This document shows positions 967 to 31,104 of a stretch of 64,000 bases of DNA, in pieces; position 1 is the first letter of the stretch, and the number at the start of each line of letters is the position of its first letter. A model generated the notes under the pieces. The model ran no database searches, was not told the DNA's origin, and saw nothing but the letters and a program-made list of their open reading frames with translations. Origin of the DNA: Acididesulfobacillus acetoxydans (GTDB lineage Bacteria; Bacillota; Desulfitobacteriia; Desulfitobacteriales; Desulfitobacteriaceae); assembly GCF_902729405.1 (NCBI RefSeq), contig NZ_LR746496.1:1426001-1490000 (forward strand), written 5' to 3'. A program made the translations under genes and the position numbers.

Positions 967-2616
967 ATGGTGCGTTATTCGGCGCAAGTGGTTATCATCG
1001 GCGGGGGGGCGACAGGTGTCGGTATATTGCGGGACCTGAGCCTGAGAGGCATATCTTCCATCCTGGTGGAGCAGGGGGACTTGGCGCACGGTACCAGTTC
1101 ACGGTTCCACGGCCTTTTGCACAGCGGGGCCCGTTATGCGGTCAAAGATCCGGTTTCGGCGGCCGAATGCATTCGGGAAAATAACATCCTCAAGCAGATC
1201 GCACCCGAATGTGTGGCAGCTACGGGAGGATGGTTTGTCCAATTACCGGGGGATGAGGTTGACTACGCACAAGCCTGGCTCAAGGGGTGTGAGAGAACGG
1301 GGATTCCGGTGCACGAAGTTCCCCTGGAGGAAGCCCTGAAAAGGGAACCTCTGTTGGCGAAAGAAGCCCTGCGCGTGTTTGAAGTGCCGGACGCCGCGGT
1401 GGACGGCTTTAAACTGGTCTGGGAGAACGCGAAGTCCGCCCGCCGCTGCGGAGGACGCTATCTGACTTACCACAGGGTGGAGGCGATTCTGCGCGAAGGG
1501 GAGGGAGTGGCCGGAGTTCGGGGAGAAAATCTTCTCACAGGGGAAAGTTTCACGGTTGAGGCCGGAATGGTTGTGAATGCGACCGGAGCCTGGGCCGATC
1601 GGCTGGCGGCTTCGGCGGGCGCTTCCTTGGAAGTAGTGCGCGATAAGGGAATACTTCTGGCTTTCAACCACAGACTCTTTCAGCGCGTGATCAACCGTCT
1701 GCGCCCTCCCGGAGACGGGGATATTTTCGTACCTCACGAAACCATAACGATTCTTGGGACCACATCTGAGTGGGTTGATACTCCTTCGGATAATCAACCC
1801 AGCGACCGGGAGGTGGAGCGAATGATGACTCTGGGTAAGGCACTCCTCCCGGGAATCGCCGAGAAAAGGGTGATCCGCGCTTTTGCCGGAGTCAGGCCGC
1901 TGCACCGGAGCGACAGCGAATGGGCGGAGGGGTCTGAAGGGGGAAGGGTGGAAGAAGGAAGGGGGCGTGCGGTCAGCCGGACTTTTGCCTTGATCGACCA
2001 TGAAGCGGAGGAAGGAATCAAGGGATTTCTCAGTATCGTTGGCGGAAAATTTACGACCTATCGTTTGATGGCGGAAAAAGCCTCCGATTGGGTGGCGGCC
2101 AAGCTCGCGAACGACGTCCCCTGCCGTACGGCAGCCGAACCTCTGCAGCCCGAACTTCCGGCCCACTTGAGGCGGCGGGCCAGGGCCCTTCTGCCCTGTG
2201 CGGCCGCGGAAAAGACGCTGCAAAGACTGGGGCGGGACGCGGCAGCGGTCTTGGAGACTATCGCCCGCGATCCGGATAAGGGTCAGCTTCTTTGTGAATG
2301 CGAAATGGTGACAGTGGCCGAGGTTGAAAAGACCGTGGCCGATGAGGATGCACACCATCTGGCGGACGTGCGGCGCAAGACCCGGTTAGGGATGGGGACT
2401 TGCCAAGGGGCATTCTGTACCTACCGGGCCCTCCCTCTCATGTGGCGCGAAGGAGAAAAATACGATCCGTTGAGCGGGGAGTTGATTCGTTTTCTAAACC
2501 AGCGTTGGAAGGGTATTCGTCCGGTCCTCTGGGGTGACCAATTGCGCGAGACGGAGTTGACTCGGGCGATTTATGCGGGGCTTTTAGATTTACGGGAAGG
2601 TGGGGCAGCCGGGTAG
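967..2616 (+). CDS. glpA: Anaerobic glycerol-3-phosphate dehydrogenase, subunit A
   Basis: This 549-residue flavoprotein oxidises sn-glycerol-3-phosphate to dihydroxyacetone phosphate and feeds electrons to GlpB/GlpC. An N-terminal FAD-binding GGGATGVG fold (residues about 8-16) is followed by the DAO-type oxidase domain with SSRFHGLLHSGARYA. A C-terminal BFD-like [2Fe-2S] domain has the cysteine pattern CECE...GTCQGAFC (about residues 440-480), which separates GlpA from aerobic GlpD. The ATG at 967 is chosen because GGGGAAG precedes it at good spacing; an in-frame TTG at 940 lies inside the leader terminator. A short Gly/Glu/Arg-rich insertion is seen near residue 320. It heads glpABC. No glycerol kinase or facilitator gene is present in the window. 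Confidence 0.93.
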   Translation: MVRYSAQVVIIGGGATGVGILRDLSLRGISSILVEQGDLAHGTSSRFHGLLHSGARYAVKDPVSAAECIRENNILKQIAPECVAATGGWFVQLPGDEVDYAQAWLKGCERTGIPVHEVPLEEALKREPLLAKEALRVFEVPDAAVDGFKLVWENAKSARRCGGRYLTYHRVEAILREGEGVAGVRGENLLTGESFTVEAGMVVNATGAWADRLAASAGASLEVVRDKGILLAFNHRLFQRVINRLRPPGDGDIFVPHETITILGTTSEWVDTPSDNQPSDREVERMMTLGKALLPGIAEKRVIRAFAGVRPLHRSDSEWAEGSEGGRVEEGRGRAVSRTFALIDHEAEEGIKGFLSIVGGKFTTYRLMAEKASDWVAAKLANDVPCRTAAEPLQPELPAHLRRRARALLPCAAAEKTLQRLGRDAAAVLETIARDPDKGQLLCECEMVTVAEVEKTVADEDAHHLADVRRKTRLGMGTCQGAFCTYRALPLMWREGEKYDPLSGELIRFLNQRWKGIRPVLWGDQLRETELTRAIYAGLLDLREGGAAG

Positions 2617-2767
2617 AGTCTAATCCACCCGGTCAAATGTTTGGAGACCGGGACGGGTTTTGGTTCAGACGGGACTTATTGTTACATCTTGATTTCGCGC
2701 GGTCGGCAAGGGTCAGGGAATTTGGAGAGAATTTAGGAATTCGGGGTAAACCGGACGGAGGGGCACT

Positions 2768-3955
2768 ATGTGGGATGGATTGGTCATCGGCGGCGGACTG
2801 GCAGGGCTCATCGCCGGAATCAGGGCGCTCGAACGGGGGAAAAAAATCCTGATTGTCTCGGAAGGGGTGGGAAGCCTGGCTTTCGCGGGGGGAGTCCTGG
2901 ATTTCGGCCGAGTGCGGGAACTGCGGCGGCTGGAAAAACACCCCTACGCTTATGTCGGCGAAATGGCGGAGAGGGCTTTTTCTTATTTCTTGCAACTCAA
3001 CCCGGCCTATACCGGGACCTGGGGGCGGCGGGGGAGCGTTTTAACCCCTCTGGGTACGCTGCGGGAAACGGAACTTCTGCCGCGGCGGTTGGATGCATCT
3101 CCCCTCTTTAAAGCGAACAAGATCGTCGTGGCCGTACCGGGAGGGCTGAAGGACTTTTTTCCGGAAATCGTAAAAGCCAATCTTCAAAAAGAGTTTCCGT
3201 CCGGCAATGTTAGGCTGAAGAAGCTGTCGGTTGAGGAGTTTGCGGATTGGCGAGCCGCCGGTAAATCCATTCCCGGCACGGTTTACGCCGAATTTTGGGG
3301 TACCGAAAGAGGGAACACAGCCTTAAAACGCCATATCTGCGAGATTGCCGGGGAGGCGGACTCGGAAGCCATCGTTTTTCCGGGCTTACCGGCGATCGGC
3401 TGCCCCGAGGTGGATGAGGTTTTAGCCGGGATATCCCTTCCCGTTGTCGGCATGACCTCCTTTCCCCCTTCGGCAATCGGACTGGCACTTTATGAAAGTC
3501 TGACGCGAAGGGTAAAAGCCCTGGGGGGAGAGCTGCTGATCGGGGTGGGTGTGGAGCGGGTTGAAGTTGAATCCGCACGGGCCCGGCGGGCGATTGTCCG
3601 AAGTAAGGGCAAAGAAACGGCTCTGACGGCCGAAACGTTCGTTTTGGCCACAGGAGGTTTCCTGGGGCGGGGACTGGTCGCCACCCCGGATGATGTCAGA
3701 GAAACGGTTTTCGGCTTACCGCTCCACGTCCCTCCGCTCCGGGGAGGGAAAGATTTCTTGGGTGAGCAGCCCTATGCCCGAGCGGGTATCGAAGTTGACC
3801 GACACCTTCGCCCCTGTGATCCGGCGACCGGAGAGGTCTTGTTGGAGAATGTCTTCGCGGCCGGCCGTATTCTGGCCCACTGGGATCCGTGGCTTGAACA
3901 TTGCGGCGGCGGGGTTTCCCTGTCCTCCGGTCTCCTGGCGGGGGAACTCCTGTAG
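2768..3955 (+). CDS. glpB: Anaerobic glycerol-3-phosphate dehydrogenase, subunit B
   Basis: GlpB is the flavoprotein subunit that links the catalytic GlpA to the membrane-associated iron-sulfur subunit GlpC. The 395-residue product is slightly shorter than the E. coli protein. It begins with the dinucleotide-binding segment VIGGGLAGLIAGIRA and has the C-terminal FAD segment ending in VFAAGRILAHWDP and GGGVSLSSG. The ATG at 2768 follows ACGGAGGGG at ideal spacing. It lies 151 bases after glpA in the same direction, so cotranscription is likely. Confidence 0.88.
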   Translation: MWDGLVIGGGLAGLIAGIRALERGKKILIVSEGVGSLAFAGGVLDFGRVRELRRLEKHPYAYVGEMAERAFSYFLQLNPAYTGTWGRRGSVLTPLGTLRETELLPRRLDASPLFKANKIVVAVPGGLKDFFPEIVKANLQKEFPSGNVRLKKLSVEEFADWRAAGKSIPGTVYAEFWGTERGNTALKRHICEIAGEADSEAIVFPGLPAIGCPEVDEVLAGISLPVVGMTSFPPSAIGLALYESLTRRVKALGGELLIGVGVERVEVESARARRAIVRSKGKETALTAETFVLATGGFLGRGLVATPDDVRETVFGLPLHVPPLRGGKDFLGEQPYARAGIEVDRHLRPCDPATGEVLLENVFAAGRILAHWDPWLEHCGGGVSLSSGLLAGELL

Positions 3956-4080
3956 CCGGAACGGCTGCCGCTTCCGCGGCGGCACTCTTTGGGCCCGCGA
4001 TTTACACAACTAATGCGGTCGAAGGATGCCACAGGATGGTAAGAAAGTTTACGAAATCCAAATCAATATTTCCCAGAGAC

Positions 4081-4120
4081 GATATATGAAAAGATATTCA
4101 TATGGAAAGATATATGAAAA
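4081..4120. repeat. AT-rich dyad and direct repeat before glpC
   Basis: ATATGAA (4084-4090) and TTCATAT (4097-4103) form an inverted repeat with a 6-base spacer. The 12-base string GATATATGAAAA occurs at 4081-4092 and again at 4109-4120. It sits within 25-60 bases of the glpC start and could be an operator or a processing site. No regulator can be assigned. Confidence 0.4.
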
Positions 4121-4142
4121 TCGGAAAGGAACTTGAGACAGG

Positions 4143-5561
4143 ATGTACACGCAAACTCAGTGGGGGGAAGAAGGCGGCCCGGGGCCCAAACCGGCAGCTG
4201 AACCCGGTGGGGATGATTCACATCGTCAGGAGTGTGGGGACCCGGCCGGCTTGGACGCCTGTGTCAAGTGCGGCATTTGCACGGCCCACTGCCCAGTGGC
4301 GAGGGCCTATGCGCCTTTTCCCGGTCCCAAGAATCTTGGCCCGGATGCGGAACGCCTGCGCCTTGAAGGAGTGGCTCTTGATCCGGGGTGTTTGGCGTAT
4401 TGTACAAACTGTAAGACCTGTGAAGTGGTATGTCCGTCCGGTGTGCGCATTACGGACATGATTCTGCGGGCACGCCGGCAGCAGGGAAGCGCCCAAGCGG
4501 AAAGCGCTAAAAGCCGGTTGAGAATAAGGGATCACGTTCTGGGACGGGCTGAGTATCTGGGGCGCCTGGGCACGGTTTGGCCTGAATTCACCAACACGGT
4601 GCTGGCCACGAAACTGACACGCCGGCTTTTGCAAAAAGCCCTGGGGATCAGCGCCGAGGCCCCTCTGCCGAAATACAAAAAACGCTTTCGACTCGAGAAG
4701 GGATCCGCTGCCGAGTTGACGAGCGAATCGGGCCAAAACGGTGGCAAGAGTGTAGAGGGGACAGGAAGCTCAAGTATGGGGAGAGGAGCCGCGGGCGACC
4801 CAAGTGCGGGGAACGGATCTGCGAGCAAACAAGTTGTCTATTTTCCGGGTTGTTTCGTCAACTATAACGACGAAGCGACCGGTCTGGCGGTCATTAGGGT
4901 TTTGGAGCACAATGGGTTCGAAGTGATAGTGCCCGGCTTCCATTGTTGTGGGGTGCCGCTCACGGCCAATGGGCGCTTCCGGGAGGCGGAGGGCAATGCC
5001 AGGCGCAATTTGGCTTTGATGGAGCCCTATTTGGAGCGGGGGATTCCGATCATTACCTCCTGCACGAGCTGCGGTTTGGCTTTGAAAGAGGATTATCCGA
5101 GGATTCGGGTTCCCGCGGCCAAACGGATCGGGGCTCAGACCTATGACCTATTCGAGTTCCTTTGGCTGTTGCACGAGCGCGGCGAGTTGAAAGAGGATTT
5201 TCTGGAGGTGAGAGTTCCACTGGCCTATCATGCCCCTTGCCATTTAAAGGCTCAGGGCATCGGAACGCCTTCTCTCCGCATCCTGCGGCTTATCCCCGGA
5301 GTAAAAGCGGAGGAACTGGACGCGGGCTGCTGTGGTCTCTCAGGGAGTTTTGGTTTTAAGGCCGAGAAATATGAACTGTCCCTTCAGATTGGCCATGCCC
5401 TGTTTCAACGCGTACGGCAGGGGATGCGGGAAGGAAAGTTTAAGGCCGTGATCACGGAATGCGGCGGGTGTCAAGTGCAGATCGCACAGGGTTCGGGAGC
5501 GCGGTCACTTCACCCGGTGTGGATATTGGCTCAGGCTTACGGATTGGGAGGCGGGACTTGA
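4143..5561 (+). CDS. glpC: Anaerobic glycerol-3-phosphate dehydrogenase, subunit C
   Basis: GlpC is the iron-sulfur subunit that anchors GlpAB and passes electrons to menaquinone. The N-terminal region has two [4Fe-4S] motifs (CVKCGICTAHCP and CTNCKTCEVVCP, about residues 40-105). Two CCG domains follow: CFVN...CCGVPL with CTSCG, and HAPCHLKAQG with CCGLSGSFG and ECGGCQVQ. Between the ferredoxin and CCG parts, roughly residues 190-225, there is a Gly/Ser-rich low-complexity stretch that is not needed for the fold. It completes glpABC; the start is the ATG at 4143 behind a modest AAAGGAAC site. Confidence 0.9.
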   Translation: MYTQTQWGEEGGPGPKPAAEPGGDDSHRQECGDPAGLDACVKCGICTAHCPVARAYAPFPGPKNLGPDAERLRLEGVALDPGCLAYCTNCKTCEVVCPSGVRITDMILRARRQQGSAQAESAKSRLRIRDHVLGRAEYLGRLGTVWPEFTNTVLATKLTRRLLQKALGISAEAPLPKYKKRFRLEKGSAAELTSESGQNGGKSVEGTGSSSMGRGAAGDPSAGNGSASKQVVYFPGCFVNYNDEATGLAVIRVLEHNGFEVIVPGFHCCGVPLTANGRFREAEGNARRNLALMEPYLERGIPIITSCTSCGLALKEDYPRIRVPAAKRIGAQTYDLFEFLWLLHERGELKEDFLEVRVPLAYHAPCHLKAQGIGTPSLRILRLIPGVKAEELDAGCCGLSGSFGFKAEKYELSLQIGHALFQRVRQGMREGKFKAVITECGGCQVQIAQGSGARSLHPVWILAQAYGLGGGT

Positions 5562-5562
5562 C

Positions 5563-5780
5563 CTGGTGATCACGAAATCCATCAGCCGTTTGCCCGCAAT
5601 ACCCTGGACACGTTGCACTATGTGCGAGCGCTTAAGGAAAAAGGGACTGCCGTGTCCTTTGAAAAAGAGGGTGTGAATACCCTTGACAGCAAGGGGGAAC
5701 ATTTGCTCTCCATTTTGGCAAGCCTGGCCCAGGAGGAGTCCAACACCCTCTCCCAGAATACGCGCATGGGGATTGCTGAC
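5563..5780 (+). pseudogene. Large serine recombinase remnant, frameshifted
   Basis: Translation gives LVITKSISR, then after a one-base loss [18 protein letters not shown], then [14 protein letters not shown] and [18 protein letters not shown]. This is the middle of the catalytic domain of large serine (resolvase/invertase) recombinases. The N-terminal catalytic serine region and the DNA-binding C-terminus are both absent. It begins immediately at the end of glpC and stops abruptly near 5780, where an unrelated minus-strand fragment begins. It is a dead fragment of a former mobile element. Confidence 0.7.
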
Positions 5781-6050
5781 CGTACGGATCGTTTTGATAA
5801 CTCGTGGTCTGTCCCAGTGGGTCAGTGGTGCTTGTCACATAGTTGTTATTGGCATCATAAGCAGCGGTCGTGGCCAGCCTGCCGGGGCTTAAGCGGATAG
5901 TGTCAAATTTGGCCGTACCTTGGGCATTATAGAGCTCCAGCCAGACTTGAACCGTACAACACAACGGGACACCATTCTGGGTGCTTTCGGTCGGGGTTGA
6001 GGTACGGGAGATCTTATGACCGAGTGTTGTCGGAGGTATTGAAATATACA
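5781..6050 (-). pseudogene. YD-repeat (RHS-type) protein remnant
   Basis: Read on the minus strand, an open stretch without start or proper end encodes [27 protein letters not shown], then [17 protein letters not shown] and [14 protein letters not shown]. The YDANNN...[10 protein letters not shown] pattern is typical of YD/RHS repeats of large secreted or toxin-delivery proteins. Only about 90 residues survive, and no complete RHS gene or immunity gene lies nearby. Confidence 0.55.
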
Positions 6051-6182
6051 GACAGTTATGGTAACATTAATAAAATAAAGGCTCATATAAACCGAGGCGG
6101 GGGAAATCGGGACGGACCACAGGTCCAATTAGGCAGATAAGCTACCGCCAGTCCGATATTGCAGTTAATGTACAAGCAATCC

Positions 6183-6296
6183 GGTAGTTAGATACACCAA
6201 TCTGATAGTTGCAAATCCGATAGTTCACCCACAATATGATAGTTGGGGCTAGAGTTTGAGAGAAGCCGCGAATCCGACTGTTTAAACTTAAACAGT
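6183..6296. repeat. GATAGTT repeats and a 20-bp palindrome upstream of the Na/Pi transporter
   Basis: GATAGTT occurs at 6204, 6219 and 6238, with a variant GGTAGTT at 6183. A perfect dyad follows: ACTGTTTAA (6277-6285), AC, TTAAACAGT (6288-6296). The palindrome is AT-rich and has no T tail, so it looks like a protein-binding operator rather than a terminator. It lies about 100 bases before the transporter start. Confidence 0.4.
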
Positions 6297-6395
6297 TCAG
6301 TATTTGCGGTTCTTTTATTTTTTGAAGGCGCCAAGGCCCGACAGGGGAGGGGCCAAAGGAGTTGATGGAAGATAAGGACGTTCGGTGCGGTTTTC

Positions 6396-8006
6396 ATGTT
6401 CTTGGGAGGTCTTGGGTTGTTCATGTACGGGGTGGAGAGCACGTCTGAGGGTTTGCAAAAGTTCGCGGCTCACCGTCTCCAAGCGATCCTCACTTCCATG
6501 ACCAAGCGGACTTTGCTGGCTGCCTTATTCGGTATGGTGATGACTGTGGCTTTTCAAAGCAGTGCGGCCACAACGGTCTTGGTGGTGGAGTTTGTTAACT
6601 CGGGTTTGATGAATCTTACTCAGGCTTTGGGCATTGTGTTGGGTTCGGCGGTCGGAACTTCTCTCACTATCCAGCTTATTGCTTTTCAAATGCTGGATGT
6701 GGCTCTGGGAGCCATTTTTCTGGGTTTCCTTCTTCACAGGATAGGCCAGGGTGCTTGGAAACATCTGGGTCAAGCTTTGATCGGCTTTGGGATTATCTTC
6801 GTGGGTAGGAGTGATATGGCCGGAGCTTCGGCCCCCCTTAAAAACATCCCGGAGCTTTATTCATTCCTGTCCGGTCTGGGTCACAGCCCGATCTTAGGCA
6901 TTCTGGTCGGTTTGGCTTTGACAGTGGTTATCCAGAACAGCACGGCTGTCTTTGCCATCATGATGTCGCTGGCGGGTCAGCACTTACTCGGTCTGGCGGC
7001 CGTCGTGCCGTTGGTCTTAGGCACGCACATTGGGGGAACGGTTACCACATTGTTATCGAGCTTTACCGCTCGGAAGACAGATGCCAAACGGGCGGCCTGG
7101 GCCAACACGGGGTACAAGGTCGTGGCCGCGGCGCTGGTGTATCCCTTCCTGCCGCAAATGGCCAAGTTGGTGCAGTGGAGCACGGGCAACCTTGAGCGCC
7201 AGGTGGCTAACGCCCACTTGTTTTTTGCTCTCTTCATGGTCGTCGTCTTCCTGCCCTTCAATTCGCTCATTGCCCGGGGCTTGAAGCGCTTACTGCCGGG
7301 TCGGGTTCAGCCCGAGCCCCTTCTCAAGCTAAAATACATAGACGAATCTTCCCTGGAGGTTCCGGCCGTAGCCCTGACCCAGACTCTCCAAGAAATTTGG
7401 AGTTTGGGCAGAATGATTTGGGAACAAATGATGCTGCAGGTGCCGAGAGGCGTCCTGGAAGTGGGGGAAGAAAGTCTCCGCCGGATCTTGGAGACGGAAA
7501 AGAAGGTGGATTGGTATCATCACCATATTTCACGGTTTCTGATCGCCTTGTCGAAGAAACAACTGACTGACGAACAGATGGAGGAAAACATTAATGCCCA
7601 GTTTATCTTGAAAGAGTTGGAGTATGTGGGGGATGAACTTGACTACGCGGCCGTGGTCATACAAAAGGTGCGCGCGCAAAATATGGATTTGACACAAGGA
7701 GATCGGGAGGTCTTGCGAGAATTATATCATAAGATTTCGAGGAATTTCTCGTCCGCTTTGGATGCGATGGAAAGGGGAGATGAAGAATTAGCGGCCGGGG
7801 TGATTCGCCAACACCCGGAGATCGTCCGGCTGCAGCGGTCGCTTAGTTTTACGGCCCTGGCGGAAGTCCCCTGCGCGGAAACGACGGCCGAAGACATTCG
7901 GCGGGAGGAAAAAATGCGCTATGCCAAGGTCGATCTGATGAACCATCTCTATAGTGTCGACGAGCATGTGGTCAACATCGCGCAAGTGGTGATGGGGATT
8001 GCATGA
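6396..8006 (+). CDS. Na/Pi-cotransporter II family protein with PhoU-like tail
   Basis: This 536-residue membrane protein belongs to the NptA/YjbB-like sodium:phosphate family. Two Na_Pi_cotrans repeats are visible, each with a QSS/QNS signature (FQSSAATTV near residue 53 and IQNSTAVFA near residue 180). A soluble C-terminal PhoU-like helical domain (about residues 340-536) follows. The ATG at 6396 opens directly into the first glycine-rich helix (LGGLGLFMYG), and its ribosome site is weak. An upstream in-frame stop at 6363 excludes a much longer start. It sits next to the Pho-box-controlled ugp genes, so a role in phosphate movement is plausible. The direction of transport (import or export) cannot be read from sequence. 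Confidence 0.85.
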   Translation: MFLGGLGLFMYGVESTSEGLQKFAAHRLQAILTSMTKRTLLAALFGMVMTVAFQSSAATTVLVVEFVNSGLMNLTQALGIVLGSAVGTSLTIQLIAFQMLDVALGAIFLGFLLHRIGQGAWKHLGQALIGFGIIFVGRSDMAGASAPLKNIPELYSFLSGLGHSPILGILVGLALTVVIQNSTAVFAIMMSLAGQHLLGLAAVVPLVLGTHIGGTVTTLLSSFTARKTDAKRAAWANTGYKVVAAALVYPFLPQMAKLVQWSTGNLERQVANAHLFFALFMVVVFLPFNSLIARGLKRLLPGRVQPEPLLKLKYIDESSLEVPAVALTQTLQEIWSLGRMIWEQMMLQVPRGVLEVGEESLRRILETEKKVDWYHHHISRFLIALSKKQLTDEQMEENINAQFILKELEYVGDELDYAAVVIQKVRAQNMDLTQGDREVLRELYHKISRNFSSALDAMERGDEELAAGVIRQHPEIVRLQRSLSFTALAEVPCAETTAEDIRREEKMRYAKVDLMNHLYSVDEHVVNIAQVVMGIA

Positions 8007-24680: not shown

Positions 24681-25472
24681 TTAGCCGTGGTGTCTGGCAG
24701 CACCGACGTGAAAATGAGAGCGCTCGTGGATCAAGTTGACATCTAAGAGCAAGTTGCGGTCGGACAGAATTTTTAACGTGGGGCCGTCGGCGGCCAGGGT
24801 ATGATCCTCCCGGATGACGATGACTCGCTCCGCAATGTCTTCGACGATAGAAAGGTCATGTGTGGCTATGATCACGGTTTTGCCCGCGTCTTTTAAGGCG
24901 GTGAGGAATTCCACCAGCCAGAATTGGGTGCGGGGATCCAGACCGTTAGTGGGTTCGTCCAAGAAGAGAACTTCGGGATTGACGGCTAGGACGCTGGCCA
25001 AGGCGACTTTCTTTTTCTCGCCGCCGCTTAAACGGTAAGGGGGGCGCTCCAAGAGATGTTGAATTCCCAGGAGTTCCGCTGTGTCCCGGACCCTTGTCTG
25101 TACCGTTTCGGTGGGGAGTCCGGCCTGCAGCGGGGCGAAAGCGAGTTCATCCCAAACGGTGGCCGAAAACAACTGCGCATCGGAGTTTTGAAAGACAAAG
25201 CCAACCTGTTGCCGGAAATTTTGCAAAAAAGCCTGGTTTCGCAGACTTTCCTCACTGAGTGTCTGGCCGAACGCCGTAATCTCTCCCGCGGTCGGAAAAA
25301 TCAGCCCGCAAAGCAACTTGAGCAAAGTGGATTTGCCGCTGCCGTTGGCTCCTAATATGGCTAAACTCTCCCCTTGATACAGATCCAAGTTGATCTGCGT
25401 CAAGACGGGCTTGTCCGGAAGGTAATTATAGGAAACGCTTCTTAAGGTAAAAAGCGGTATTGACTTCGTCAT
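24681..25472 (-). CDS. ECF-type transporter ATPase, CbiO/NikO-like
   Basis: This 263-residue ABC ATPase belongs to the energy-coupling-factor group for cobalt/nickel. It has Walker A GANGSGKST, the Q-loop VFQNSDAQLF, the signature LSGGEKKKVALAS, Walker B VLFLDEPTNGLD and the switch histidine in IATHDLSIVED. ATG 25472 follows GGGAGG at 6 bases; the GTG at 25478 would overlap the ribosome site. The upstream CbiQ-like gene stops within the same few bases, so the two are coupled. Located with cooT, nickel is the likeliest cargo. Confidence 0.9.
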   Translation of the reverse strand: MTKSIPLFTLRSVSYNYLPDKPVLTQINLDLYQGESLAILGANGSGKSTLLKLLCGLIFPTAGEITAFGQTLSEESLRNQAFLQNFRQQVGFVFQNSDAQLFSATVWDELAFAPLQAGLPTETVQTRVRDTAELLGIQHLLERPPYRLSGGEKKKVALASVLAVNPEVLFLDEPTNGLDPRTQFWLVEFLTALKDAGKTVIIATHDLSIVEDIAERVIVIREDHTLAADGPTLKILSDRNLLLDVNLIHERSHFHVGAARHHG

Positions 25473-25474
25473 AT

Positions 25475-26416
25475 TCACCCTCCCAATACTTTGTCCGCGG
25501 CATAGAGAGTAAGGCTGGAAAGAAGGATGACCCCTGTTGTGAAGAGATCAAGCCACGTGAGCTTAAAGTGCCGGGAGAGGCGGACTTCGCCGTTGTAACC
25601 CCGGGCGGCCATGGCCTGATAGATTTCTTCGCTCATCAATTGGGATTTACCGAAGAGCCCGCCCATAGAGGAGGCTACAAAGCGACGTTGTTCCTTGATA
25701 TCGGAAAGACCGGCATCGCGCGCCTTGCGGGCCATGAACATTTCCTCCAGGCTCATAACTAAGACAAAAATGTAGCGGTACGTCATTTCCAAAGTGGCGA
25801 CAAATATCTTTGGCAGGAAGAAGGTGCGCAGAGCGCGCAGAAGATCATGCCAGCGAGTGGTGAGCGTGATGATCATGGCCAAACTGACGGAGATTCCTAC
25901 CCGGCTCACGAGCAGAGCGTCCCCCTGCAGGCCTTGTTTGGTAATGGCCAGGGTGGCAGGAAGGCGCCAAGGGCCGATCCGGAGCGGAGCCCCCAGATGA
26001 AAGAGGGTAAAGAGGGGGTCTCCGGGCCGCACCCAGCTAAAAAGTGCGGGCAGGGCCATGATTCCGGTGAACAGCGGCACGACCAGCCAAACCCTTTTCA
26101 GAAGAGAGCGGACTGAAAGGCCGGACAAGTGGGCCGCCAAGAGGAGAACCAGGTAAAATCCCCAGAGAAGGGTAAGATGGCTTAGCAAATTAAGGGAGAT
26201 CAACAAGAGGAGGAGGGCCATCACTTTAACCCGAGGATCGAGAGATTGCAAAAACCCGGGTTGTAAAGCGACTTCTTCCGAGAAGACGGAAGCGTGCAGG
26301 AAACGAATGATATCTTCCAAAGTCTTTTGCACAAACCCCTGCTTCTTCCGTCTGCCCAGGCAGCCACAGGGGCAAAGAGCGGGGCTGTTTTCTTGGAGCC
26401 AATCGGGAAGCTTCAT
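25475..26416 (-). CDS. ECF transporter transmembrane (T) component, CbiQ-like, with Cys-rich N-terminus
   Basis: This 313-residue protein has about five to six membrane helices and the cytoplasmic coupling motifs of the EcfT family (MFMARKARDAG and YQAMAARGYNGE, where AARG is the conserved signature). The first 40 residues form an unusual soluble extension with the cysteine cluster CPCGC (residues 15-19) followed by basic residues, which could bind metal. ATG 26416 is chosen with GGGGGA 6 bases upstream; a longer frame to 26512 lacks a ribosome site. No substrate-binding S component (CbiM/NikM type) is encoded next to it. Confidence 0.85.
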   Translation of the reverse strand: MKLPDWLQENSPALCPCGCLGRRKKQGFVQKTLEDIIRFLHASVFSEEVALQPGFLQSLDPRVKVMALLLLLISLNLLSHLTLLWGFYLVLLLAAHLSGLSVRSLLKRVWLVVPLFTGIMALPALFSWVRPGDPLFTLFHLGAPLRIGPWRLPATLAITKQGLQGDALLVSRVGISVSLAMIITLTTRWHDLLRALRTFFLPKIFVATLEMTYRYIFVLVMSLEEMFMARKARDAGLSDIKEQRRFVASSMGGLFGKSQLMSEEIYQAMAARGYNGEVRLSRHFKLTWLDLFTTGVILLSSLTLYAADKVLGG

Positions 26417-26545
26417 GGTCGTTCCCCCACTGTCTTGTTTTTTGCCGGCATGCGCCGGGGCGAAACCCCGAACTGATGTGCTTGGACTCCCATCCCGGGG
26501 CCCGGCCGGCATCGGAGTAGCGAGTCCGGCCTTTGTGTCCGGGAG

Positions 26546-26806
26546 TTAACGAGCTAAGATGTCCGCCCTGTCTGTTTGAGCGGTGCTGACGACCGCATGA
26601 GGAGCGGGCCGGCGGCCTTCTTCCGCTTCCAGGACGATGCGGTGGCTTAGGAGGGTCATGTCTTTGATCCTGGCTCTGATGAATTTTTGCCGGCCGAAAA
26701 TATCCACGAGTTTGAGTCCGTCCTCGTAGGGTTCGATAATGTCGACGGCTTCCATGAACAGCGCTTCGCCCTCGCTGTTTTTTAGATAAGCATTGGCTTC
26801 ACACAT
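26546..26806 (-). CDS. cooT: CooT-family nickel-binding protein
   Basis: This 86-residue protein matches CooT: it begins MCEANAY and has ESVDIIEP-like EAVDIIEPYEDGLKLVDIFG and QKFIRARIKDMTLLSHRIVLE. In characterised CooT the cysteine at position 2 binds Ni(II), and Cys2 is present here. The C-terminal 20 residues are a nonconserved tail. An excellent GAGGAGGG precedes ATG 26806. It heads the minus-strand set cooT-cbiQ-cbiO and supports nickel rather than cobalt for the transporter. Confidence 0.88.
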   Translation of the reverse strand: MCEANAYLKNSEGEALFMEAVDIIEPYEDGLKLVDIFGRQKFIRARIKDMTLLSHRIVLEAEEGRRPAPHAVVSTAQTDRADILAR

Positions 26807-27623: not shown

Positions 27624-28409
27624 TCATTGCGCATCTTTGAAGCGAACCATCGGACATTTCTTACAGACGTCCAGCCCCGGCCATTCCGTCCCGGTGTACG
27701 GGAAGGAGGCTCCGTCAGACACTTCAGTGCGGTAGGCCAGCTGCCGGGCCACGTCCAGGATCTGGTCACCCGGTATGAAGACGTTGACCTCCCCCTTCTC
27801 GGTTTTGCCGGAGGTATAACTGCCCGAGCACATGGTGCTCATGTTAGGCTTGTGGTTCAGGTAACTCCAGACGGCGCCTCCACAGACCGCTGAGTTCACG
27901 GTGTGATTGAATTGAAGGGGATGAACTTTGAAAGCGCCGATGAAATCATTCAGGATGTGGTAAGCCTGCAGGGGGTTGCAGACGAACATGACCACGTCGG
28001 GATCCACCGGCGTTTTGGCGAGCGGAGCAGTCATGAATACTTTCAACTCCCCCAGGGGCAGGCGAGGCTTGGTGGCTAAGACCTGTTTGGCAAGTTCCAT
28101 ATCCGCCACATACTTAAAATGCCCTTTGGCTTCTTCATCGGACGGGGCGGTATAGCCGAAACTGGTCAGGCAGTTTTCACATAAAATATTATCATTCGTT
28201 CCTTTGAGGACATAGTTGGCCATGCGGGTAGCCGCCGTAAATTGGCAGAAGGTGAGTTTCGCGGCCGCCCTCTTCTCAGCCGGGTATTTTGCCGCTTCTT
28301 CCGCAGACTTAAAGAACTTTATGGCTACCGGGTGATAATCGAGTTTTAAGAGGCGTTCAAACAGTTCCTGAGCGTCAGCATAGGTCGTGATGGATTTCGG
28401 ATCAACCAA
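27624..28409 (-). CDS. DUF169 family protein
   Basis: This 261-residue cytoplasmic protein belongs to DUF169, a family of unknown function common in anaerobes. It has a conserved basic/aromatic core (YHPVAIKFFKSAEEAAKYP) and several cysteines in pairs or conserved spots: FCQF, LCENCLTSFGY, AVCGGAVWSY, STMCSGSY, and the C-terminal VCKKCPMVRF. These suggest metal or iron-sulfur binding. The start is TTG 28409 behind GAGGAG. It is the distal gene of a minus-strand operon with a TSUP exporter and a small membrane protein, so a role in sulfur-compound handling is possible but unproven. Confidence 0.82.
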   Translation of the reverse strand: MVDPKSITTYADAQELFERLLKLDYHPVAIKFFKSAEEAAKYPAEKRAAAKLTFCQFTAATRMANYVLKGTNDNILCENCLTSFGYTAPSDEEAKGHFKYVADMELAKQVLATKPRLPLGELKVFMTAPLAKTPVDPDVVMFVCNPLQAYHILNDFIGAFKVHPLQFNHTVNSAVCGGAVWSYLNHKPNMSTMCSGSYTSGKTEKGEVNVFIPGDQILDVARQLAYRTEVSDGASFPYTGTEWPGLDVCKKCPMVRFKDAQ

Positions 28410-28541: not shown

Positions 28542-29498
28542 CTAGATAATCTTGATTCCTACCGTGTGCAGGATGAGGGGGCCAAAGACATAACCGATGC
28601 CGATATAAGTGAGGACGACGGCCAGGAAAGCTTTAAGGTAGACCCCCTTGATGTATTTGGAAAGAGTGGGTCCCAAGTATGAACCGATGAGGATGCCGAT
28701 GAGTTCGAAACCGATCATGGCGAAGTCCAGGTGGCTGCCCATGCGCAAATAGTTGCCGATGCTGGTGAGAGAAGAGATGAGAATGGACATAGTTGAGGTG
28801 CCAGCCACAATGAACATCGGAAAGCCGAGCATGCTGCTCAGGAAAGGTACCAACAAAAAGCCACCGCCCACACCCAGGGCCGCTGAGATGATGGCTACAA
28901 ACATTCCGGCCAGGAAAGGAGCGAAGGCATTATAGCGGAACGTTTCACCTGCGAAGGAAAAAGTATTGTTGATGCCCATCTCACTAAAATTCACGCCGAT
29001 TTCTTTAATCTCATTGAGCTTTCCGGCCGCTTTCAGTTCCTTGACCTTGCTCTCAAAAGCTTTGGTCGCTTTTTTGACGACCTGTTGCTTGTCACGAAAA
29101 CGGGGGGTCAGCTCATACCACATGCGACCCGCAATGACAAAAGTGATCAAGCCGAAAAGGGGCTGATACGATTTCATGTCCGGCAGATAAGTGTGTGAAA
29201 GCCAGGAACCGATCAGGGCTCCGATGATTCCGCCCAAACCGAGGGTTACCGCCGCCGGAATCACCAGCCGTTTTTCCCGCAGGTATAGAGGGGTGGAAAT
29301 GACCGGACTGACCAAAGTGAGAATTTGGTTCATGGGTTTGATGACGTTGGCTTTTTTCATACCGAAGATGGTAATATGCCCGACTCCGGCCAAGATTCCC
29401 CCGGCCGCGCCGATGGTCGAAAAGACGAACCCGACAAACATCATCCAGATTATGATGACGATGGGGTTGACGGTGACGCCCGCCACATGAAAAATCAT
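28542..29498 (-). CDS. TSUP (TauE/SafE) family membrane transporter
   Basis: This 318-residue integral membrane protein has eight or more predicted helices. The two glycine-rich TauE repeats are visible: STIGAAGGILAGVGH near residue 28 and SAALGVGGGFLLVPF near residue 210. A charged cytoplasmic loop (about residues 140-170) separates the two halves. Family members export sulfite, sulfoacetate or related anions. ATG 29498 follows CGGAGGTG. The gene overlaps the stop of the preceding small membrane-protein gene by four bases, which indicates coupled synthesis. Confidence 0.88.
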   Translation of the reverse strand: MIFHVAGVTVNPIVIIIWMMFVGFVFSTIGAAGGILAGVGHITIFGMKKANVIKPMNQILTLVSPVISTPLYLREKRLVIPAAVTLGLGGIIGALIGSWLSHTYLPDMKSYQPLFGLITFVIAGRMWYELTPRFRDKQQVVKKATKAFESKVKELKAAGKLNEIKEIGVNFSEMGINNTFSFAGETFRYNAFAPFLAGMFVAIISAALGVGGGFLLVPFLSSMLGFPMFIVAGTSTMSILISSLTSIGNYLRMGSHLDFAMIGFELIGILIGSYLGPTLSKYIKGVYLKAFLAVVLTYIGIGYVFGPLILHTVGIKII

Positions 29499-29938
29499 TG
29501 AACAGCACCTCCGACTGTTTTTTCCCGGTTACATGGGGTTACCGGGTTAACCCGAGCGCCCGGAGAATATTTGCGCAATAAATGGCGTCCTGCGTAGAAT
29601 AGAATTGCGGCTGTCGGATACCAGATGATGACAGGAAGTTGGTTGCCGATCCAGGGCAGTTGCAGGGGGACAACTAAGTAAGGGAAGCGGAAATTGATCA
29701 ACCACATGACCACAACGTGCGGAATGAGAAAACCGATCCCATCCAGAAAGGCCAGAGTCAAATATTCGCAAAAGACTTCGTTCATCTCTCGCTGCAGCAG
29801 GGAGTACATGAGCTTACTTTCACTTTCCAGGGCCAAGGAAGACAAATCCCGGTACTCAGCCAGTCTAGCCAATAGTTTTTCCTGCTTCTTCCGGTGGGGA
29901 TGCAGAAATTTGTCGACCATGCCGAGCCACGCCTTCAT
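29495..29938 (-). CDS. Small membrane protein, unknown function
   Basis: The 147-residue product begins with a basic, amphipathic region (HPHRKKQEKLLARLAEYRDL) and a Ser/Leu/Glu-rich helix. Two to three hydrophobic segments follow (about residues 55-120: FCEYLTLAFLDGIGFLIP, VVVMWLINF and IIWYPTAAILFYAGRHLL). I do not recognise a family. It is first in the operon with the TSUP transporter and the DUF169 gene, and the four-base overlap with the transporter suggests it is an accessory subunit. The promoter region behind it carries a striking operator array. Confidence 0.65.
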   Translation of the reverse strand: MKAWLGMVDKFLHPHRKKQEKLLARLAEYRDLSSLALESESKLMYSLLQREMNEVFCEYLTLAFLDGIGFLIPHVVVMWLINFRFPYLVVPLQLPWIGNQLPVIIWYPTAAILFYAGRHLLRKYSPGARVNPVTPCNREKTVGGAVQ

Positions 29939-30093
29939 AGAGACACCTCACTTGTCAGGAGACTTATCAAGAGTAAACAGCATCTCGCCAACCATCGGAA
30001 AAAGATACAGCTCGCGCCGCGGTATATTAGGTTGTTGCCATAAAGTGAATGTGCCCCCTTTCTTAAATCAATGGCCAGATAGACTCTACCTAA

Positions 30094-30204
30094 AGCATAG
30101 CAAATTAAGGAGTCAGCAGATGTCAGCGGAGCGACAAAAACAATGTCGGCAGTACGACAAAAAGAATGTCATCTGCACGACATTAGGCGGTCGCGCAGAT
30201 GACA
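30094..30204 (-). promoter_or_regulatory. Tandem CooA-like operators and promoter of the TSUP/DUF169 operon
   Basis: TGTCA-N6-CGACA occurs at 30121-30136, TGTCG-N6-CGACA at 30144-30159, and TGTCA-N6-CGACA at 30167-30182. The starts are exactly 23 bases apart. A degenerate fourth copy (GGTCG-N6-TGACA) lies at 30189-30204. A minus-strand TATGCT (30094-30099) would place the nearest site at -41.5, the class II activator position of Crp-family proteins. The pattern equals the published CooA target. The neighbouring Crp/Fnr-family gene is the likely binder. Confidence 0.75.
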
Positions 30205-30253
30205 TTGTCCGGAAAAATACGATATTCATCTAATATTCATCCAATGGTTTTCC

Positions 30254-30922
30254 TTACATAATCCAGCGAACGAGTTTATCCGGATTGACGATTTTGATCT
30301 CCCGGCCTTCGTACGAAATGCTTTTTTCGTGCTTAAATGTATTGAGCAAGGTTGTCACCGTCTGGCGTGAGGCTCCCACCATACTGGCCAATTCCTCGTG
30401 GGTAAGAGGCAAACCGATCTTGATTCCGTTCTTGGCCTCCACCCCGCAGCGCTCGCTCATTTTTAAGAGAGTCAGGGCCAGGCGTCCCGGTGTCTGCCAG
30501 CTTACCATCTCATGGATGATTCCTTCCGCTTCCCGCATTCTGGCCCCCAGCAATTTAGCGACCTTAATGGCCAGAAAGGGGTGAGTGGCCATAAGTTCTT
30601 CGAATTTATTCCTGCGTAAAACGACCATGGTCACATTATCAATGGCACCGGCGAAACAAGTCCGTTCGCCTCCCCAGAGAGTCTCGGCCAGCCCCATCAT
30701 TTCGCCGGGACTGCGGATGCTTCCCACGGTCACCCGATGTCCGTCGGAGGAAAGGCGGTAGATCTTGACCCAACCGCTTTCAATCAGGTATACCCGATCG
30801 GCAATGTCGCCGGCAGCAAAGACTATATGTCCTTTGGGATAATGGACCAACGAACCTGCCTGGCGGACAAGGACTTTCTCCAAATCATCCAGGGCTGCTG
30901 TTTCCAGGTTGGCGGCTTCCAT
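30254..30922 (-). CDS. Crp/Fnr-family transcriptional regulator
   Basis: This 222-residue protein has an N-terminal cyclic-nucleotide-binding-type beta-roll (GHIVFAAGDIADRVYLIESGWVKIYRL and SPGEMMGLAETLWGGERTC), a long dimerisation helix and a C-terminal winged helix (LTHEELASMVGASRQTVTTL). It lacks the N-terminal cysteine cluster of Fnr, and I see no equivalent of the CooA haem ligands (Cys75/His77). Its recognition helix SRQTVTTLLN resembles that of CooA. ATG 30922 is chosen for the GGAGGG 7 bases upstream. Its own promoter has consensus boxes. Effector unknown; the adjacent TGTCR operator array is the expected target. Confidence 0.88.
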   Translation of the reverse strand: MEAANLETAALDDLEKVLVRQAGSLVHYPKGHIVFAAGDIADRVYLIESGWVKIYRLSSDGHRVTVGSIRSPGEMMGLAETLWGGERTCFAGAIDNVTMVVLRRNKFEELMATHPFLAIKVAKLLGARMREAEGIIHEMVSWQTPGRLALTLLKMSERCGVEAKNGIKIGLPLTHEELASMVGASRQTVTTLLNTFKHEKSISYEGREIKIVNPDKLVRWIM

Positions 30923-31061
30923 ACATCGCCCTCCTTCTTCGGTAGGTATTTTCGCGAGCGTGCCGGGCATGGGTCGGGTTTCAAAGGAGAGAGAAAAAAG
31001 GGCGAACAACAACGTCTTTGTCTGCGGCGGCGCGAGCCCGGCGCCTTCCGAAAGGTTTAAG

Positions 31062-31104
31062 ATAACGCATACTTATTATAGAGTTAAGCATACGTTATTG
31101 TCAA
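31062..31104 (-). promoter_or_regulatory. Consensus promoter of the Crp/Fnr gene with flanking dyad
   Basis: On the minus strand TTGACA (31099-31104) and TATAAT (31075-31080), both perfect, are 18 bases apart. An imperfect inverted repeat flanks the -10 box: ATAACGCATAC (31062-31072) and GCATACGTTAT (31088-31098). It may be an operator. The predicted leader is about 145 bases long. Confidence 0.7.

Follow-up and report, generated by a model that had tools for sequence, protein, structure and literature searches.

Three exact palindromes of the form TGTCR-N6-YGACA, followed by a fourth, degenerate copy, stand in tandem upstream of a small operon of the acidophilic sulfate reducer Acididesulfobacillus acetoxydans, within the 64,000-nucleotide stretch of DNA analysed here (the window). 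They are very probably operators at which tandem dimers of the adjacently encoded Crp/Fnr-family regulator would activate transcription in class II fashion, as part of a putative sulfur-oxyanion regulon. The tandem row recurs in front of the operon in more than 20 related species.

The array, its promoter and its operon

A pattern scan of the window re-found the three exact sites of the preliminary description at 30121-30136, 30144-30159 and 30167-30182, in 23-bp steps (TGTCAGCGGAGCGACA, TGTCGGCAGTACGACA and TGTCATCTGCACGACA, respectively), and likewise the degenerate copy, GGTCGCGCAGATGACA at 30189-30204, which has one mismatch and lies 22 bp beyond copy three. All are assigned, with the promoter, to the minus strand, on which the proximal operator reads TGTCGCTCCGCTGACA. 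On this strand 21 nt run from the end of the proximal site to TATGCT (30099-30094), which has TGC in front of it; the predicted extended -10 element is TGCTATGCT (30094-30102), and its TGnTAnnnT pattern is found at the same offset in relatives. With TATGCT taken as the -10, the proximal operator is centred at -41.5 and the second and third at -64.5 and -87.5, recomputed values that agree with those first given, and transcription of the operon is predicted to start near 30087. No -35 hexamer was found in the window promoter at the matching distance from TATGCT. The arrangement—centre at -41.5, -10 present, -35 hexamer lacking—is that of a class II promoter, relative to a start that is itself predicted.

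The minus-strand gene order is crp, an intergenic region of about 315 nt, a gene for a small membrane protein (SMP; 147 aa, 29495-29938, first gene of the operon, without a Pfam family), one for a TSUP/TauE-type anion permease with orthologues in relatives (318 aa, 28542-29498, overlapping the SMP gene by 4 nt) and one for a DUF169 protein (261 aa, 27624-28409). The operon had been described as encoding a sulfur-anion-type exporter (TSUP), a DUF169 protein and a small membrane protein, and the families were confirmed as PF01925 and PF02596. The third gene encodes DUF169 or DUF1847, depending on lineage. SMP has an N-terminal coiled region and then membrane helices; its structure model (mean pLDDT 73, pTM 0.49) yielded no significant fold match. 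One of 19 SMP members bears a faint, unconfirmed resemblance to EMC3/TMCO1 (E 0.073). Downstream of the DUF169 operon, at 24681-26806 of the window, a gene for the CODH accessory protein CooT lies beside cbiQ and an ECF-type ATPase gene.

Orthologous operons were taken from Desulfosporosinus, Desulfitobacterium, Desulfotomaculum copahuensis, Desulfofundulus, Desulfocucumis, Desulforamulus and others (for part of the Desulfitobacterium-like genomes the genus is inferred), the nearest relative being strain CEB3, with a TSUP protein 99% identical. Chains of two to seven sites occur at 26 orthologous promoters; among their 71 steps, for which the search range was 18 to 28 bp, 63 measure 23 bp, seven 22 bp and one 28 bp. 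TGnTAnnnT starts exactly 18 nt past the proximal site at 23 of the 26 loci, and once at any of 55 other offsets; for the three remaining loci, inspection by eye showed a shift of one base at L110 and chaining errors of the script at L117 and L182. Across the 26 promoters, information content is 1.1-1.9 bits at positions 2-4 and 13-16 and near 0 in the inner columns, which together with the step counts indicates that half-sites and spacing were kept and the rest drifted. A lack of conservation upstream of orthologous operons had been named in advance as refuting evidence; at these 26 promoters the sites are present, and the proposal stands. No array accompanies the second copy of TSUP in D. acididurans (L109), near which there is a CooT-like gene (L109:12337).

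The promoter layout also bears on the direction of control. Crp/Fnr proteins can activate and repress, and part of the array lies in the -35 region, so the same regulator might act as a repressor or in both ways. We consider this improbable: nearly all relatives have the extended -10, no -35 hexamer and a centre at exactly -41.5, the usual arrangement for activation, as established with CRP at class II promoters, and occlusion needs no upstream tandem sites.

The neighbouring Crp/Fnr protein and the CooA question

The gene adjoining the array (30254-30922, minus strand) encodes a member of the Crp/Fnr superfamily, with a cNMP-type beta-roll (PF00027, 1.1e-19) and a Crp-type HTH (PF13545, 4.8e-18). 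Its reading frame is open to a TTG at 31012; in the alignment, orthologues begin at an ATG near 30922. Upstream lies a sigma-70-type promoter of full consensus, TTGACA-18-TATAAT (31075-31104, minus strand), which suggests constitutive expression of the regulator. The structure model is an ordinary Crp fold that matches NtcA, GlxR and CRP (best Z 21.6, 208 aligned, rmsd 3.1). E. coli CRP contacts cAMP through Glu72, Arg82, Ser83 and Thr127; aligned with E. coli CRP, the regulator keeps Arg and Thr at 82/83 and does not keep the residues at the Glu72 and Thr127 positions. An RTC motif in the ligand-pocket region is invariant in the alignment of orthologues. The recognition helix reads [ST]RQ[TN]VTSLLN, with RQ[TN]VT in all orthologues and RQTVT in the window protein; it comes close to the CooA helix (2fmy: RQTVSVLLN) and is unlike the E. 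coli CRP helix (RETVGRILK), and this CooA-like helix fits the TGTC half-site.

Of 27 family genomes with a TSUP orthologue, 25 also have a regulator orthologue (48-97% identity), as against 0 of the 19 that lack TSUP, counts that come from related genomes rather than independent events and carry no phylogenetic correction. No regulator orthologue was found in two TSUP-bearing family genomes, of which one is 79% complete and the other has 9% contamination. Five genomes of the phylum picked by the DNA pattern alone all have the orthologue, the best match in the four other than A. acetoxydans being 66-76% identical. That the adjacent Crp/Fnr protein binds the array, as first proposed, is thus made probable by conservation and co-occurrence. 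In three genomes, D. acididurans (G006), G014 and G024, the regulator gene is away from the operon and still in the genome (strain FKB is among the non-adjacent cases). A gene for an eight-heme (CxxCH) hydroxylamine oxidoreductase-like cytochrome adjoins the relocated regulator gene of D. acididurans, and a similar gene is found at that place in G014 (L163:2961-4244; L162:9447-10727).

The operators had been labelled CooA-type, and as to the half-site the label holds: the CooA consensus is TGTC-N8-GACA (PMC7306483), and the CooA target has been given as TGTCGGCNNGCCGACA (PMC545781). The implied link to CO and CooA is not supported, in view of a regulator without the heme histidine and of a separate CooA-like gene. 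We took CooA to be marked by the axial heme ligand His77 in a GD-x-F-C-x-H motif, an RQT[TV]S recognition helix and linkage to cooF/cooS or a CO hydrogenase. The aligned region of the regulator, GEMMGLAETLWGGERTCFAGA, has no His at the heme position, where 1ft9 and 2fmy read FCMH and FCTH; the helix, RQTVT, does correspond; and the neighbours are SMP-TSUP-DUF169/DUF1847 genes. At about 183 kb from the array, the coo locus has a CooA-like gene of its own, whose product carries a histidine at the heme position, in GDVYSEHS. This gene is followed by a single TGTCGGGAAGCTGACA and then by the cooF-cooS (CO dehydrogenase) operon (L238, G000:C1:1268500-1277000, 2483-5753), the site standing at -41.5 with no 23-bp partner. 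At two Desulfitobacterium CooA-side loci, too, the site is single, with no 23-bp partner.

The identity of the half-sites with the CooA consensus and the presence in the genome of a CooA-like protein with a heme-position histidine might suggest that a true CooA-type CO sensor occupies the array and renders the operon CO-responsive. This is very unlikely: CooA-side promoters carry single sites and not 23-bp tandems, the regulator that co-occurs with the array lacks the heme histidine, and in CEB3 (G001), D. acididurans, G014 and G024 no CooA match was found above other Crp/Fnr proteins, yet the array is kept. On this distribution CooA was rejected as the array binder.

A third Crp paralogue in the same genome, with the helix CRQTVTTTL, precedes a DASS anion symporter gene and an aprAB-like and HdrA-like operon (L237, G000:C1:4379000-4389000, 2468-7708). 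The DASS and aprAB-like promoters have one site each (TGGTACAAT and TGGTACCAT), of the form TGTC-N8-GAC[AT], centred at -41.5 and with the same spacing to an extended -10. With TGTC-type sites for the CooA-like protein, the third paralogue and the array regulator alike, a single cell seems to contain three sensors with a common half-site. Tentatively, and with more doubt than conviction, we suggest that a distinct subfamily of Crp/Fnr activators may work as a packed multi-dimer assembly, the 23-bp step and two to seven sites acting as a code that avoids cross-talk: single sites would be read by CooA or the other paralogue, arrays by the regulator.

Hairpin and chance controls

Copies three and four are also the arms of a terminator-like hairpin of the crp gene (30155-30206, minus strand), of 17 pairs, 8 of them GC, with an 8-nt loop and then CTTTTTG, about 50 nt past the crp stop. 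A GC-containing stem and a T-run behind the crp gene are the marks of an intrinsic terminator, and the strand folds with much greater stability than its shuffles (z -6.75). The repeats could accordingly be RNA or terminator hairpins of the crp transcript rather than operators, a proposal to which we give very little credence: in most relatives crp is followed by a separate, GC-rich hairpin and the array is kept nonetheless, the strict spacing to the -10 is left unexplained, and arrays stand before LysR, lone DUF169 and molybdoenzyme genes that have no crp upstream. The last observation led us to reject termination as the sole function. Copies three and four likely have a dual role as operators and terminator arms, and in this genus the stretch probably does two jobs.

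The source genome, a single contig of 4,520,225 bases, was scanned for the motif, as had been suggested. The single motif is at background frequency, its exact form being present 15 times and the reversed pattern 12 times; outside the array the exact form is present 12 times, in 11 cases within an ORF and once at cooFS. What exceeds chance is the 23-bp tandem. Of 46 family genomes, 13 contain GTC-N8-GACA-N8-GTC-N8-GACA and 0 its reversed control; a two-site pattern with the extended -10 at fixed distance occurs in five of 398 genomes of the phylum (reversed control 0); and the layout with up to two mismatches in 24 of the 46 family genomes (control 0), a few of these matches being probably due to chance. 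Near-exact sites number 76 in the DNA upstream of 24 related operons, where dinucleotide shuffles give 2.1; pairs spaced by 23 bp number 34 there and 0 in the shuffles. An array arisen by chance or neutral tandem duplication, to which the background of single sites in the genome might have pointed, is refuted by conservation and merits practically no belief, half-sites and spacing having persisted across genera with inner and linker bases diverged and controls at zero. Iteron-like origin repeats were rejected, each unit being a palindrome in fixed register with a promoter.

Targets, proposed mechanism and known systems

The tandem layout is found before other genes: a LysR gene in seven Desulfosporosinus, at the same -41.5 offset; in Desulfosporosinus, molybdoenzyme operons that lie downstream of TSUP (L117, L122); PhsA-like operons in Desulfofundulus (L108) and G413, whose enzymes have PhsA (thiosulfate reductase) as best NCBIfam match, below its cut-off; a lone DUF169 gene (G255); and a second crp gene (Desulfocucumis, L111). 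The set united by this promoter layout is a predicted regulon, and that it serves sulfur-oxyanion handling is a reasoned guess from the gene families. The targets would fit a role in reduction and transport of thiosulfate- or sulfite-type oxyanions, with a signal of the same class, a proposition that we hold at a little less than even confidence. No description of regulon or regulator was found in the literature searched.

In the mechanism we favour, activation by tandem dimers of the adjacent regulator, the array would control the operon (29938-27624) as part of an activator-dependent class II promoter. Once switched on by an effector, dimers of the 30254-30922 protein would dock on the TGTC-N8-GACA sites; the dimer at -41.5 would sit where a -35 box is missing and contact RNA polymerase on the extended -10, and those at -64.5 and -87.5 would pack alongside at the fixed 23-bp step and, through added occupancy or cooperativity, steepen or stabilise the response. 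Since 23 bp make about 2.2 helical turns, neighbouring dimers would be rotated by about 70 degrees and would pack edge to edge. The regulon would be small, comprising TSUP with its small membrane partner, DUF169/DUF1847, PhsA-like molybdoenzyme operons and, in Desulfosporosinus, the LysR gene. Against this mechanism count the non-adjacent regulator of three genomes, the two TSUP-bearing genomes in which no regulator orthologue was found, the array-less second TSUP copy and the off-face 23-bp step.

These results define a conserved regulator and a predicted regulon in spore-forming sulfate reducers (Desulfosporosinus, Desulfotomaculum and relatives). Shared control of TSUP, DUF169 and DUF1847 gives these families a testable role in sulfur-oxyanion handling, and the system is a natural one in which to ask how Crp-type sensors with the same half-site avoid cross-talk.

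The layout resembles the class II and tandem class III promoters of E. coli CRP, in which a dimer at -41.5 replaces the -35 box and extra sites lie upstream; it differs in its fixed 23-bp packing of two to seven sites. Textbook tandem CRP promoters have one-face spacings, whereas dimers at successive 23-bp steps are not on one DNA face. By sequence as well as by structure model, the closest solved relatives of the regulator are GlxR, NtcA and the CRP of Mycobacterium tuberculosis, at 25-32% identity and a Z of about 21; it differs from them in its ligand-pocket residues, the Glu of CRP's GEL motif not being kept. With the CooA systems (the coo promoters of Rhodospirillum rubrum, Carboxydothermus and Desulfovibrio) it shares the Crp/Fnr fold, the TGTC..GACA half-site, a near-identical recognition helix and the -41.5 position of the proximal site, which the cooFS promoter of the same genome also shows; it departs from them in the absence of the heme histidine, in the 23-bp tandem arrays and in sulfur-type targets rather than CO dehydrogenase. 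The Desulfovibrio "nitrate cluster" (DVU0251-0245 / Dde_0597-0605) has adjacent DUF169 and TauE-type genes with a conserved hypothetical gene beside them, and breaking the DUF169 and TauE genes is reported to lead to nitrate resistance (PMC4001038). By that paper's annotation the likeness is one of DUF169 and TauE-type genes kept together in a sulfate reducer, and that DUF169/TauE genes of a similar set decide nitrate resistance there is of practical interest for souring control (PMC4001038). The Desulfovibrio cluster differs in that the genes listed for it include a histidine kinase and a response regulator, and no Crp protein (PMC4001038).
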